NCBI RefSeq assembly: GCF_008035925.1
Contig: NZ_CP036264.1
Location: 7,597,641-7,661,640, forward strand
DNA: 64,000 nucleotides
Direction: 5' to 3'
Source: Stieleria maiorica
Lineage (GTDB): Bacteria > Planctomycetota > Planctomycetia > Pirellulales > Pirellulaceae
A program made the translations under genes and the position numbers. This document shows positions 41,435-46,586 of this stretch, in pieces. Each line of letters starts with the position of its first letter. Position 1 is the first letter of the stretch. A model generated the notes under the pieces. That model was not told the origin of the DNA. It was given only the letters and a program-made list of their open reading frames with translations, and did no database searches.

Positions 41435-42004
41435 TCACTGATCGAGCCTGAGCGGCATCGAAATCAATAGCCCCGCGGTTCGGTCTTCCGTGCTGGTTCG
41501 GTGTTTGACGTGACATTTCAAGCATTGTGACGCCAGACGGATCGGGCCGGCGAATCGATAGCGAGATGGCTCGACCGCTTCGTGCCGGGGCTTCCCTGCC
41601 TTGAGCGCGACGACCGCCGCCTTTTCGAATTCATCGTCGGCCTGATGGTCAACGTTGACGATGTCGGTTTCGACGATCAGCCATTTGAGTTCCACGGAGT
41701 ATTGTTCGGCCAATGCGTCAAAGACGTCTTCGAGCGAAGCGGACGGGATCGCGTGGGCGTCGTCTTCATCAAACAGGTCTCGGTGAGCCACCTGCAACGC
41801 TCCATGCATCGATTCGTAGAGCAACACGGCCCGCGCACGGGCTTCGGGAACAGTTGTCGAGGGTGGGACCTCTGGGGCGGCCGCTTGCCCGTGTGCCACC
41901 GCCGCAGGCTCGTTGGCCCTCCCCGGCGACTCGTCGACAACCAGCACCAGGATCGAGATCGTCAGAATGCACAAGGAAAACGCGAGCCTTGTTGGATTTT
42001 TCAT
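41435..42004 (-). CDS. DUF3365 (Tll0287-like) haem c protein
   Basis: 189 residues with a signal peptide (AFSLCILTISILVLVV). The C-terminal stretch YRFAGPIRLASQCLKCH then VKHRTSTEDRTAGLLIS is characteristic of the DUF3365/Tll0287-like family, with a single haem c motif CLKCH. Such proteins are periplasmic or membrane-anchored and are linked to redox sensing or electron transfer; the exact role is unknown. Convergent with the CaCA gene and followed by the palindromic repeat. Confidence 0.8.
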   Translation of the reverse strand: MKNPTRLAFSLCILTISILVLVVDESPGRANEPAAVAHGQAAAPEVPPSTTVPEARARAVLLYESMHGALQVAHRDLFDEDDAHAIPSASLEDVFDALAEQYSVELKWLIVETDIVNVDHQADDEFEKAAVVALKAGKPRHEAVEPSRYRFAGPIRLASQCLKCHVKHRTSTEDRTAGLLISMPLRLDQ

Positions 42005-42333
42005 TTTCGGTCCTCGGCCTGGTTCGGGCCTTTCTCAGCGATTTTGGATTGGCGGGCTTGATGCTACAATCGCGGCATCGATCGTGATTCGGGTTCCAAC
42101 TTCCTGGGCGGGGGTTGTTGATGCCCCTCAATCGGTATTGGTGCCTGCGGCGTGAGGCTGTCGCGGGTGTTCGTGTCGGTTCCCGTTGGCATCGGGAGCC
42201 GCTCGCTCACGCTTCCCGCTGGCATGGGATCGGACGTGGAAGGTGGGTACCGGTGATCGGCATTGGCCGGCACTGCCGGGCTGAACAACGCCTCATCTTG
42301 TCTGTTTCACCCGACCCGACTGTTGCGATTTCC
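42005..42333. other. Gap upstream of the nsrR-like gene with a REP-like fragment
   Basis: This stretch holds a partial REP-like unit at about 42179-42232 (GGAGCCGCTCGCTCACGCTT then CCCGCTGGCATGGGAT). The frame from 42115 that joins the Rrf2 gene is translated repeat and is not considered coding. No NsrR-like box was seen here, so autoregulation is not indicated. Confidence 0.55.
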
Positions 42334-42753
42334 ATGAAGCTGACCACTCAGACCGATTATGCGTTGCGCACGTTGATGTTTTTGGCGACGCGATCGTCTC
42401 GCGCAAACGTACGTGATATCGCAACACTGTTTGGGATCTCGGTCAATCATGTGGCGAAGGTCGTCAATTTGCTCGCACGCGAAGGCTACATTCTTAGCAC
42501 CCGAGGCGTCGGCGGGGGGATCGAATTGGCGAAGCCAGCGGAGGAAATTTCCGTCGGGCAGGTCGTCGCTGCCATGGAAACCGACATGCATCTGCTTTCC
42601 TGTGTCGGCAGCGATGACTCCTGTGTCATCCATTCGTTCTGTAAGCTCAAGGGCGTGTTGGCCGAAGCCGAGCGCGTGCAGCGCGAATACCTTGACGGTG
42701 TGACGCTTGCGGACGTGGTCCCGACGCGTCGGCAACTCAATCGTGTGCAGTAA
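42334..42753 (+). CDS. nsrR: Rrf2-family Fe-S regulator, NsrR-like
   Basis: 139 residues. The N-terminal winged helix begins MKLTTQTDYALRTLMFLATR and includes RDIATLFGISVNHVAKVVNL, as in NsrR. Three cysteines at 90, 97 and 103 (LLSC, DDSC, HSFC) match the three-Cys pattern that holds the NO-sensitive [4Fe-4S] cluster of NsrR. Hmp, the classical NsrR target, lies 2.6 kb downstream, and NsrR-like operators are present in its promoter region, so the assignment is stronger than from the sequence alone. ATG 42334 is the family's usual start. The last 17 bases overlap the convergent GyrI-like gene. Confidence 0.82.
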   Translation: MKLTTQTDYALRTLMFLATRSSRANVRDIATLFGISVNHVAKVVNLLAREGYILSTRGVGGGIELAKPAEEISVGQVVAAMETDMHLLSCVGSDDSCVIHSFCKLKGVLAEAERVQREYLDGVTLADVVPTRRQLNRVQ

Positions 42754-43253: not shown

Positions 43254-45035
43254 TTAATCGGCGACCTCGCAGGGTCGGGACAGTTCCTCGACACCGATCC
43301 GGTCACAGAAATCACCAAAGCTTTCGCCGGCGGCTCGCTCCTGTTTGAATCGAAGGAACACCGGCCGCAGCGTCACCGCGATCTCACTGCGCGGCACTTG
43401 ATCTTTGTAGATTGCCGCCATCTGGTTGCCGCGAAGATTGCCGCCTAGGAACACGGTGTAGCGACCTTCGCCGGTTTTTCCATCCATGCTGCGCCCGACC
43501 AATCCGACATCGGCGTTGTAGGGTCGGGCACAGCCATTGGGACATCCCGTCATGCGAATCGAAAACTGCTCGGCGGACAGGCCCAAATCGTTGAGTTCCG
43601 CTTCGAGATCATCGATCACACCCGGCAACGCTCGTTCGCTTTCGGTGACGGCCAGGCCACAGGTCGGCAGCGCCGGGCAAGCAAAGGAGAATCGACGCGC
43701 ATTGCTGATTTGTTCAACCGTCACAACACCGTGGTCGGCCAGGATGGATTTGATGGTCGGTCGTTGCTCCGGTGCGATGTCGCACAACAAGAGGTTTTGC
43801 TGGGCGGTCAGCCGGCAATTGGAAACATGGTGGCGAAACAGTTCGCGCAGCGCCGTCTTGAGTCGCAAATCACCTTCGTCCTTGACGCGTCCGTTTTCGA
43901 TCGGCAGCCCCAAAAACCACTTTCCGTCCCCTTGTTCATGCCAGCCCATGTGGTCGTCGTGGCCGGTCACGTCGTCGGGGTGGGGATCAGGCAACGGTCG
44001 TGGGACCGTTCCACGGGGCATGCCACAGATCGACTCGGCCTGGTCGAGGTATTGTTCGACCTTGGTCTTGAACGCCGGCAATCCCATGTCGGCGATCGTG
44101 TACTTCAGACGTGCCTGGCTGCGGTCGGCGCGGTTGCCGAGGTCCCGCTGCACCATGATGACCGCCGTGATGACGGCCCGCAGATGCTGGGTTTGAACAA
44201 ACGCCAGACGCTTTGCCAATGCCGGAAAACATTGCTTCTTGCTGGGCGTTGTCCCCATCCCGCCGCCGACCAAGACGTTGAACCCGATCAGCGTGTCGCC
44301 TTCGGTCACTCCCAGAAGTCCCAGGTCGTTGTCGTAGACGTCGATGCAGTTGTCGCTGCACAGCGCCAATGCGATCTTGAATTTTCTCGGCAGGTAGGCT
44401 TCGCCGTAGATCGGGTCGTGCTCCGAGTCGTCCGGTGCGCCGACGACTTGCTCACGCCGGCCGGTTTCCGGGTCTTTGATCCATATCTCGTGATAGGCAC
44501 CGGTTCTGGGGCGGACATGGTCGGCGATTTCGTCGGCTAATTGCTGCAGCTGGTCTCGCAAACCGTCATGCCGCAGCGGAGCCGGGCAGCAGCACACGTT
44601 TCGTGTCACGTCACCACAAGCCGATTGCGTGGACAGCTTCATCGCGTTGATCCGATGAATCACGTCCCACAAGTTATTCTTGACCACCCCGTGCAACTGA
44701 ATGCTCTGCCGGGTTGTGATCCGGATCGTCCCGTTGCCAAGTTCGTCGGCGATGTCGAGTTCGCCGAGAAATTGCGCGGCGGTCATCTTTCCGCCGGGAA
44801 TGCGATTGCGAACCATGAAGGAATACGCTTTGCCGAGTCCTTCTTTTCGTCGCGACTTTCGCAGATCACGATCGTCCTGCTGGTAGGTCCCGTGAAACTT
44901 CAACAGCTTCGTCGTCGCGTCTTGGACATGGTCGGTGGAGGAATCGGCCAGCTCGGCCGCGATGCTGCCACGAAGCCCGTCGCTGGCTTCCTTGATCAGT
45001 TCAACTTTTGACTTCTTGCGTTCTTCTGTGGGCAT
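43254..45035 (-). CDS. Sirohaem-[4Fe-4S] sulfite/nitrite reductase
   Basis: 593 residues with the duplicated reductase fold. The first half has NRIPGGKMTAAQFL and RITTRQSIQLHGV (sirohaem pocket), then TRNVCCCPAP. The second half carries the cluster ligands CPALPTC and TGCPNGCARPY (Cx5C...Cx3C). Length and motifs match assimilatory sulfite reductase haemoprotein (CysI/Sir), but nitrite reductases of the same superfamily cannot be excluded. It is divergent from hmp; its promoter holds an NsrR-like box over the -10 region, so nitrite or NO-derived substrates are worth considering. Confidence 0.88.
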   Translation of the reverse strand: MPTEERKKSKVELIKEASDGLRGSIAAELADSSTDHVQDATTKLLKFHGTYQQDDRDLRKSRRKEGLGKAYSFMVRNRIPGGKMTAAQFLGELDIADELGNGTIRITTRQSIQLHGVVKNNLWDVIHRINAMKLSTQSACGDVTRNVCCCPAPLRHDGLRDQLQQLADEIADHVRPRTGAYHEIWIKDPETGRREQVVGAPDDSEHDPIYGEAYLPRKFKIALALCSDNCIDVYDNDLGLLGVTEGDTLIGFNVLVGGGMGTTPSKKQCFPALAKRLAFVQTQHLRAVITAVIMVQRDLGNRADRSQARLKYTIADMGLPAFKTKVEQYLDQAESICGMPRGTVPRPLPDPHPDDVTGHDDHMGWHEQGDGKWFLGLPIENGRVKDEGDLRLKTALRELFRHHVSNCRLTAQQNLLLCDIAPEQRPTIKSILADHGVVTVEQISNARRFSFACPALPTCGLAVTESERALPGVIDDLEAELNDLGLSAEQFSIRMTGCPNGCARPYNADVGLVGRSMDGKTGEGRYTVFLGGNLRGNQMAAIYKDQVPRSEIAVTLRPVFLRFKQERAAGESFGDFCDRIGVEELSRPCEVAD

Positions 45036-45075
45036 CTAAGGTCTTCTCGGGGCGCGGTTGGACGCCAGTGTTGTA

Positions 45076-45098
45076 AACATGCATGGGGAATACATGTT
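45076..45098. promoter_or_regulatory. NsrR-like operator at the reductase promoter
   Basis: AACATGCAT-N5-ATACATGTT matches the known proteobacterial NsrR operator pattern AAGATGCAT-N5-ATACATCTT at 16 of 18 fixed positions with the same 9-5-9 spacing; the two changes are symmetrical (G to C and C to G), so the site is a fully symmetric palindrome in its arms' outer part. On the minus strand TTGACA (45125-45120), an 18-base spacer and TAAAAC (45101-45096) form a promoter whose -10 touches the box, 41 bases upstream of the ATG. Binding there would block transcription. Confidence 0.7.
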
Positions 45099-45126
45099 TT
45101 AGTCGCGGCGAAGACGAAATGTCAAC

Positions 45127-45182
45127 GGCAGCCCGTCAACATCGGCAGCCAGTCAACATCGGCAGCCCGTCAACATCGGCAG
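45127..45182 (+). repeat. 17-bp tandem repeat, 3.3 units
   Basis: Three units GGCAGCCMGTCAACATC at 45127, 45144 and 45161, then a partial unit, lie between the two NsrR-like sites in the reductase-hmp intergenic region. They might set the spacing between the two promoters; no known protein site is recognised in the unit. Confidence 0.7.
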
Positions 45183-45263
45183 TGTCAACCGTTCGGCAGA
45201 GACAACCGGCTGTTGATGCTGGCACGATCGACAGGTGGTGTCGACACGATCCGGTTCTCCCGG

Positions 45264-45293
45264 TTGACGCCCAATGCATAAACTATACACTGG
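45264..45293 (+). promoter_or_regulatory. hmp promoter with second NsrR-like operator
   Basis: CCAATGCAT-N5-ATACACTGG at 45271-45293 keeps ATGCAT and ATACA of the NsrR pattern at the right spacing, though the outer bases differ. It lies inside a plausible promoter: TTGACG at 45264-45269, 16-base spacer, TACACT at 45286-45291. The site is weaker than the one at 45076 but co-located with the classical NsrR target gene. Confidence 0.55.
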
Positions 45294-45350
45294 CATGCAG
45301 ATTTGGTGTTTCCTGTCATGTTTTCCCGCCAAAACGAGCTGCCGAACAAG

Positions 45351-46586
45351 ATGCTGAGCGAACAAACGATTCGAATCGTCAAAGAAATCACCCCCCTGGT
45401 CGCCGCCAATGCCGAAACGATCACGCGGCGATTTTACGAGCGGATGTTCCAGGCCAATCCCGAGGTCAAGGCGTTTTTTAATCAATCACACCAACACACC
45501 GGCGGCCAACAGAAGGCGTTGGCCGGGGCGATTTGTGCCTATTTCACGCACATCGACAATCCCGCCGTGCTGATGCCCGCGGTCGAACTGATCGCCCAGA
45601 AACATTGTTCGTTGGGCATCAAAGCCGAACACTATCCGATCGTCGGCAGCAATCTGCTCGCGGCGATCAAAGACGTGATGGGCGACGCGGCGACCGACGA
45701 GATCATCGACGCCGTTGCAGAAGCGTACGGTTTCTTGGCAGACATCTTCATCGGTCGCGAGTCAGCGATCTACCGGCAGCAGCAGGCGGCACCGGGCGGC
45801 TGGAACGGGACACGGACCTTTGTCGTCACCAAGAAAGTCGCCGAAAGTGACGTCGTCACTTCGTTTTATTTAACGCCCGAGGACGCGGGGCCACTGCCGC
45901 CGTTCAAACCCGGTCAGTACATCACGGTTCACATCGATCATCCGCACACACCAACTTCCCCACGCAACTACAGCTTGTCGGATCGTCCCGGTCAACCGCA
46001 CTATCGCATCAGCGTCAAGCGCGAAGAAAGGCTGACTGCCGACGCGCCCGACGGTTTGATCTCCAGCCACCTGCATGACGCAATCGACGAAGGCCACCAC
46101 ATCAAACTCGGACCGCCTTGTGGCGAATTCACGGTGGACCCTGCGGCAGTGGCCCGGCCGGTCGTGTTGCTCGCCGGCGGTATCGGAGTGACGCCGCTGT
46201 TGTCGATGGCGAAGTCGATCGCCCATGCGAATCCCGACGTGCCGATCTACTTCCTGCAAGCGGCGCGCAATAGCCGCGTTCACGCGTTCGCCGACGAACT
46301 CCGCAATCTGGCCGAAGTTGCGTCGAACGTGCAGACCCACGTCGTCTACGATCAGCCGTTGCCGGGGGACGTCGAGGACGGAAGGTGTGATGCGGTCGGA
46401 GTCGTGACGACGGAGTTGCTGCGTGACTGGACGCCGTATGCGGACGCCGAGTTTTATTTCTGCGGACCCAAACCATTCATGCAAAGTATCCACGCGAGCC
46501 TGCGGGAACTCGGTGTCGATGAACACCGCGTGCGTTACGAATTCTTCGGGCCGAAGCAAGAGCTGGATGCCGCAGTCCCCGCGTAA
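45351..46586 (+). CDS. hmp: Flavohaemoglobin (nitric oxide dioxygenase)
   Basis: 411 residues. Converts NO and O2 to nitrate with NADH or NADPH. Starting at ATG 45351 ([12 protein letters not shown]) aligns with E. coli Hmp and puts the haem residues at the same numbers: Tyr29, Gln53 and proximal His85 ([10 protein letters not shown]). The FAD domain follows ([16 protein letters not shown]), then the NAD domain ([26 protein letters not shown]). Upstream in-frame ATGs at 45303 and 45318 are less likely. Divergent from the sirohaem reductase; an NsrR-like site covers its promoter. Confidence 0.93.

Follow-up and report, generated by a model that had tools for sequence, protein, structure and literature searches.

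A very probable NsrR-type operator at the promoter of a sulfite reductase paralog and a probable NsrR-type circuit in Planctomycetota

The 282-bp intergenic region between a sulfite reductase gene (sir2) and a flavohemoglobin gene (hmp) in Stieleria maiorica raises the question of which of these genes is under the control of a nearby Rrf2-family regulator, and whether this regulator is of the NsrR type. The initial annotation of the window, i.e. of the whole 64-kb stretch of DNA that was analyzed, had proposed two NsrR-like operators, each touching the -10 hexamer of an outward promoter, and had considered them as an extension of a well-described NO-sensing circuit to planctomycetes. Both palindromes are indeed present in the sequence, and the features relevant for their interpretation are collected in Table 1.

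Table 1. Features of the sir2-hmp region and the adjacent regulator locus (positions refer to the window)
Feature	Position	Strand	Basis and remarks
Tll0287-like (DUF3365) c-haem protein gene	41435..42004	-	PF11845; CLKCH motif; N-terminus resembles a signal sequence when read by eye; transcribed divergently from the nsrR-like gene
nsrR-like gene, Rrf2 family, 139 aa	42334..42753	+	PF02082, 121 bits; CX6CX5C
sir2, sulfite reductase hemoprotein paralog, likely target	43254..45035	-	NF010029, 706 bits (cut-off 457)
Operator 1 (NsrR-type, well-supported)	45075..45099	.	AAACATGCAT-N5-ATACATGTTT, spacer ggggA
sir2 promoter	TTGACA 45125-45120, TAAAAC 45101-45096	-	18-nt spacer; read from the sequence; -10 overlaps operator 1
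hmp promoter-like element, TTGACG-N16-TACACT	45264..45291	+	promoter scan
Candidate operator 2 (doubtful)	45271..45293	.	CCAATGCAT-N5-ATACACTGG; core 45274-45290, one mismatch
hmp copy 1 (flavohemoglobin NO dioxygenase)	45318..46586	+	NF009805, 546 bits (cut-off 432)

The NsrR consensus described for gamma- and betaproteobacteria is gATGyAT-N5-ATrCATc (Rodionov et al., 2005; PMC1274295). Operator 1 agrees exactly with its core (ATGYAT-N5-ATRCAT, 45079-45095), while the outer g/c are C/G here. The genome-wide pattern search suggested by the initial annotation was carried out and yielded exact matches at two places in 9,894,293 bases, namely operator 1 and G000:C1:2558087, and matches with one mismatch at 14, as opposed to a single match for the reversed-pattern control. 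Three near-identical one-mismatch core matches (ATGTATYGCTGATTCAT; G000:C1:3377493, 6479692 and 8439177) are perhaps parts of a repeat. Within the window alone, the occurrence of two matches at up to two mismatches lies within chance (shuffled sequences gave a mean of 3.23 and at least two matches in 81 out of 100 cases). A matrix built from 42 planctomycete sites, of which operator 1 is itself one, assigns 32.2 bits to operator 1 with its AAA/TTT-flanked arms and no more than 6 bits to any other position of the window. In five random windows with matching dinucleotide composition, the top scores were 16.3, 6.9, 4.8 and 4.3, with one window lacking any score above 4. In Rhodopirellula sp. JC639 the operator is partly kept (AAACCTGTAT-N5-GTGCATGTTT), and both hexamers of the sir2 promoter are conserved. 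This promoter was not reported by a consensus promoter scan because the scan accepts only second hexamers that end in T. The postulated contact with the -10 hexamer is seen for operator 1; at hmp, the scan finds the promoter-like element and it is the site itself that is doubtful. Judged by its match to the consensus, its score and its position, operator 1 very probably is a real operator.

A candidate for the cognate repressor is encoded nearby. The three cysteines previously noted in the Rrf2 protein are confirmed as C90, C97 and C103 and are kept in 50 of 51 orthologs (CX6CX5C in 47, CX7CX5C in three); the one ortholog without a full triad is a partial sequence of about 90 residues. The best NCBIfam equivalog model for the protein is NsrR (NF008240) with 107-108 bits, compared to a curated cut-off of 182 that serves as a naming threshold and is narrow: eight of 14 control genomes match the model and one passes. 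E. coli and B. subtilis are both among the matching control genomes, and an nsrR ortholog is described for B. subtilis in the available text of PMC1274295. Four matches to the NsrR model occur in the genome, with the window gene in first place (107 bits) and the next at 43 bits. Scores with the RirA, IscR and CymR models amount to 82, 71 and 41 bits, respectively, versus 108 for NsrR, and the best match in the PDB is NsrR from S. coelicolor (5n07, E = 2e-16) with the cysteine triad aligned. The protein shares 37% identity with E. coli NsrR, again with aligned cysteines, and a second Rrf2 protein of the genome shares 24%. By equivalog and PDB scores, the window protein appears to resemble NsrR most among the Rrf2 groups; assignments as IscR, RirA or CymR were set aside on the basis of lower model scores and the PDB matches. 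No operator is visible in the promoter region between rrf2 and the divergent tll gene (no matrix match above 0 in 41950-42400), and autoregulation is therefore not seen in this genome.

The gene facing operator 1 encodes a protein with NIR_SIR domains whose best PDB matches are sulfite reductases. A function as nitrite reductase was considered and set aside, as both equivalog and PDB matches denote sulfite reductase. The genome contains a second sulfite reductase copy (G000:C1:2068716-2070398) that is 53% identical to sir2. Two further operators are present in this genome. One (34.5 bits, 2.558 Mb) has metH on one side and the relic of a decayed sir2 on the other. The other (2.553 Mb) precedes a DUF2024-type gene in the vicinity of the second hmp, a quinol NO reductase (qNOR) gene and a scdA/ytfE-type gene. 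The metH gene itself is apparently split by a transposase-like ORF (L001:1354-2511; about 2.553-2.558 Mb, L001:982-5980), and its putative C-terminal end was found by reading at L001:982-1260. Fragments of the sulfite reductase paralog reside beside metH at L001:6221-6361 and at another locus, L129, near 5819, with the strong operator still present. In a relative (G172, locus L126), sir2 and metH are divergent and have one operator in common. A simple reading is that a sir2-metH pair was split, that one sir2 copy decayed and that the operator stayed with metH.

The operator is conserved well beyond this genome. In 64 loci, most of which were picked for Rrf2 or sir2, the core with up to one mismatch gave 26 matches at 25 distinct places (two of the loci overlap), as opposed to zero for the reversed control. 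The extended motif derived from these matches, AAA(C/G)ATGYRY-N5-RYRCAT(C/G)TTT, occurs with up to one mismatch in 30 of 199 genomes of the family (reversed control: five). Its presence is linked to that of the Rrf2 ortholog, which was detected in 54 of the 199 genomes (E up to 1e-15): the motif is found in 28 of these 54 and in two of the 145 others (Fisher, p = 5.7e-17, shared ancestry ignored). A phylum sample of 392 genomes (Rrf2 at E up to 1e-20), nine of which belong to the own family and are shared with the first sample, gave a similar picture, with the motif in 21 genomes and the reversed control in five. Here, 13 of 37 genomes with Rrf2 and eight of 355 others contain the motif (p = 6.6e-10), and the proportions outside of the own family are 11 of 34 and eight of 349 (p = 2.4e-8; Fisher with shared ancestry ignored in both cases). 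At this strict setting, 26 of the 54 Rrf2-containing family genomes and 24 of the 37 in the phylum sample are devoid of a site, and in some of them weaker sites precede rrf2.

Outside of the family, a site precedes the Rrf2 gene by 17-64 bp in seven of the 34 Rrf2-containing genomes. At L275 the site is flanked by rrf2 and a divergent qNOR gene, and at L272 and L273 a site precedes a gene for a Tll0287-like protein. In one other planctomycete family (L271), a site (L271:1501) is situated 38 bp before a gene for a small bacterial globin (PF01152), and in another (L284) there are two sites (L284:1501 and 1728), one at rrf2 and the second (23.8 bits) again before a small globin (PF01152). No such neighbours accompany the sites in the eight genomes without Rrf2 at the setting used (G413, G557, G537, G580, G495, G423, G308 and G521). 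When applied to E. coli K-12, the planctomycete matrix had its top match within 8 kb at the site that precedes hmp (15.5 bits) and its top match within 12 kb at the site before ytfE (28.0 bits), both of which match the core exactly; the hmp value is near that of the best random 64-kb window (16.3), the ytfE value well above it. Taken together, these sequence comparisons lend good support to the presence of an NsrR-type circuit in Planctomycetota. Operator form and NsrR-type regulator both appear to be present in the phylum, as the initial annotation had it, while its claim to novelty is partly pre-empted by NsrR homologs retrieved by BLAST in magnetotactic Planctomycetota (PMC11014258), for which the available text gives no operators.

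Gene neighbourhoods may help to answer the question of which targets are served. Among 49 sites in the 199 family genomes, 46 adjoin a small set of genes, and one site can count for several of the following classes. Genes for Tll0287-like proteins are the most common neighbours (25 sites; 17 directly upstream, seven with the gene in second position behind rrf2, one more distant). The sir2 gene is near 11 sites, two of them 748 bp away; the sir2 match in G197 is likely a fragment because this genome otherwise lists only the other sulfite reductase. The rrf2 gene itself is downstream of ten sites, and a site just upstream of a regulator gene is the usual sign of autoregulation. The metH gene is near seven sites, DUF2024 near five, hmp and qNOR near three each, a pyridine-nucleotide oxidoreductase near two and a Rieske protein near one. 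The qNOR gene follows 613-620 bp downstream of the site, after DUF2024, and two of the three hmp cases are reached across the sir2-hmp region. Three sites are without a reference neighbour, two of them in genomes without Rrf2. This tally is partly circular, since sequences beside sites supplied the references for metH, qNOR, DUF2024, two others and seven of the eight Tll0287-like proteins. The matrix was built from the sites themselves. With the window genes rrf2, sir2, hmp and the Tll0287-like gene as sole references, 30 of the 49 sites are explained, and 22 when the Tll0287-like reference is left out. Four MetH, eight Tll0287-like proteins, one Hmp, one qNOR and one DUF2024 protein (27.2 bits, cut-off 27) were confirmed as examples by Pfam. 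The DUF2024 candidate of this genome has no Pfam match at 1e-5 and is 39% identical to the confirmed DUF2024 protein. In five genomes (L226, L228, L231, L138, L065:8571-8837), an operator is located 47-76 bp before a small gene of the DUF2024 type, and in three of them this gene is followed by qNOR. Judging by position only, NO-detoxification genes near sites comprise those for qNOR, the small globins of L271 and L284, and hmp.

In a hand-made list of 45 site-gene pairs, which is distinct from the 49-site set, TTGACA (up to one mismatch) is found at the spacing of a -35 element in 28 cases on the side towards the target gene and in eight on the opposite side. This bias and the overlap of the sir2 -10 hexamer with operator 1 fit a repressor. 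In L219 (G180), hmp adjoins a site that has TTGACA inside it and could in part represent the promoter of hmp; we therefore see it as weak support for hmp as a target.

With the setting used, Hmp is encoded in 76 of the 199 genomes of the family, in some of them recognized by the reductase part only. CCTTGAC is found in 41 of 55 distinct hmp upstream regions and a fuller box (CCTTGAC ... TATACC ... AGGT) in 12 of them. A relative of the second Rrf2 is encoded within 600 bp of hmp in 22 of 55 cases, and the fuller box and the second Rrf2 occur together in six. The second hmp of this genome has a CCTTGAC-type box and a divergent second Rrf2 gene (both genes at L065:6128-7930), and adjoins a qNOR-like gene, named by reading its sequence, and a gene for a ScdA/YtfE-type protein. 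These counts indicate that in this family hmp is often under a system of its own. An hmp gene next to sir2 is found in the window and the nearest relative only, among the loci compared. By the criterion of site positions, hmp is not the main target of the planctomycete NsrR-type circuit.

From these patterns we arrive at the following explanation, which as a whole we regard as likely. The Rrf2 protein of the window would be an NsrR-type repressor in which C90, C97 and C103 probably hold an Fe-S cluster. Its dimer would bind operator 1 over the -10 hexamer of the divergently oriented sir2 promoter and prevent transcription. NO would destroy or nitrosylate the cluster, whereupon the repressor would leave and sir2 would be expressed. 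The same repressor would act on the operator between metH and the sir2 relic and on that of the DUF2024-type gene, and in relatives mostly on the genes for Tll0287-like c-haem proteins, on its own gene, on sir2, metH and DUF2024-qNOR. What the sequences show is that the operator is conserved, that it is tied to the Rrf2 ortholog and to the genes named, and that it sits in a promoter; binding, repression, the Fe-S cluster and NO as the signal are what we infer here.

A different proposal, that of the initial annotation, is control of the window's hmp by the same repressor via site 2, with two operators 195 bp apart marking an hmp promoter circuit. The core of site 2 deviates by one mismatch, touches the hmp -10, and from the genome-wide density the chance of a one-mismatch core in the 282-bp region is only about 4e-4. 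In register, however, the planctomycete matrix gives it -22.0 bits, the AAA/TTT arms of the family are missing, and in JC639 the right half, i.e. the -10 (AAACTATACACTG), alone survives while the left arm is lost. When the motif was sought upstream of hmp in relatives little was found: among the hmp upstream regions compared, 11 or 12 of the 12 core positions agree in the window's own alone, and none of the others exceeds ten, a value reached on the side of sir in JC639 (one locus, present in two copies) and also in L013, L019, L028 and L029. Of the two predicted sites, the first has thus held up as exact and above chance, whereas the second is probably not a conserved NsrR site, which makes control of hmp through it improbable. 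The usual element at hmp is CCTTGAC, and the pair of sites can hardly be taken as the mark of an hmp circuit. The window's hmp, a normal flavohemoglobin by model score, may still be co-controlled from operator 1. The better reading appears to be that operator 1 belongs to the sulfite reductase paralog, with metH and the Tll0287-like haem proteins as co-targets.

With sir2 and metH being sulfur genes, the signal might not be NO. The Rrf2 protein could respond to sulfur or Fe-S status in an IscR- or CymR-like manner, with sir2 and metH as its actual targets, and have kept an NsrR-type operator, a view in line with sulfur-assimilation genes at a good part of the 49 sites (sir2 at 11, metH at seven), the rarity of hmp among the neighbours, and the different box and different Rrf2 at hmp promoters. 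We rate it as unlikely in the face of qNOR and small globins among the neighbours, Tll0287-like c-haem proteins as the largest class, the identity of the operator with the published NsrR consensus, the CX6CX5C spacing and protein matches that favour NsrR over IscR, RirA and CymR. That the motif is a palindrome arisen by chance, or belongs to a different regulator, is far less probable still. The three unassigned sites, the eight of 21 motif-containing genomes in the phylum sample without Rrf2 at the setting used, and the five genomes matched by the reversed control in each sample could be taken in that sense, but they are set against 30 versus five genomes in the family, 21 versus five in the phylum sample, 26 versus zero matches in 64 loci and the strong tie to the Rrf2 gene. 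Genome counts, this tie and the neighbour tally also speak against a pattern that is common at unrelated promoters, the objection that the initial annotation had formulated against itself.

If the NsrR-type explanation is adopted, a rewired regulon can be envisaged. In such a regulon, NO would derepress the genes for three kinds of proteins, namely a dedicated sulfite reductase, the cobalamin-dependent and N2O-sensitive methionine synthase, and c-haem proteins of the stand-alone Tll0287 type. The cell would then answer NO stress with substitutes for poisoned sulfur and methionine metabolism and with an extracytoplasmic haem sink or sensor, and hmp would mostly be left to a second Rrf2 regulator. 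We put this forward tentatively and would give it somewhat less than an even chance. NO reductases yield N2O. Such targets are plausible, since cobalamin-dependent MetH is poisoned by N2O (PMC13059711) and since haem Cache proteins fused to signalling modules show properties of NO sensors. A preprint (PMC12889525) proposes NO sensing for fused and redox roles for stand-alone Tll0287/DUF3365 members and, in its available text, describes a stand-alone-like haem Cache protein that does not bind NO strongly; neither NsrR nor planctomycet occurs in its main text. The NsrR-type explanation itself carries a known NO-sensing circuit, together with operators and targets, into a phylum that is widely important in water and soil, provides the poorly understood stand-alone Tll0287-like haem proteins with a regulatory context, and connects the NO response with methionine synthesis by MetH.

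In the literature searched, which leaves most subscription journals outside its coverage, we found neither this operator nor the present targets described for planctomycetes. The words planctomycet and Pirellula are absent from PMC1274295. As far as their available text goes, PMC8139620 names beta- and gammaproteobacteria, Streptomyces and Bacillus as holders of NsrR, and a study of a mat community that includes planctomycetes reports nsrR in no phyla beyond the two studied (PMC10866078). RirA, IscR and CymR belong to the same protein family and are less similar to the window protein by model score. The closest solved relative by sequence is the S. coelicolor NsrR mentioned above. The stand-alone Tll0287/DUF3365 c-haem Cache proteins share the Pfam family PF11845 and a CXXCH motif with the product of the window's tll gene. 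For Bacillus and Streptomyces, candidate NsrR sites are described only upstream of hmp genes in the available text of PMC1274295, compared to which the set of neighbours in planctomycetes is wider. The NsrR regulon of E. coli with hmp and ytfE is alike in its three-cysteine Rrf2 protein, in the form of the operator and in the presence of NO-detoxification genes among the neighbours. In contrast to the proteobacterial systems, planctomycete operators prefer AAA(C/G)ATG...CAT(G/C)TTT and their neighbours are chiefly Tll0287-like genes, sir2, rrf2 and metH, while hmp mostly resides under another element.
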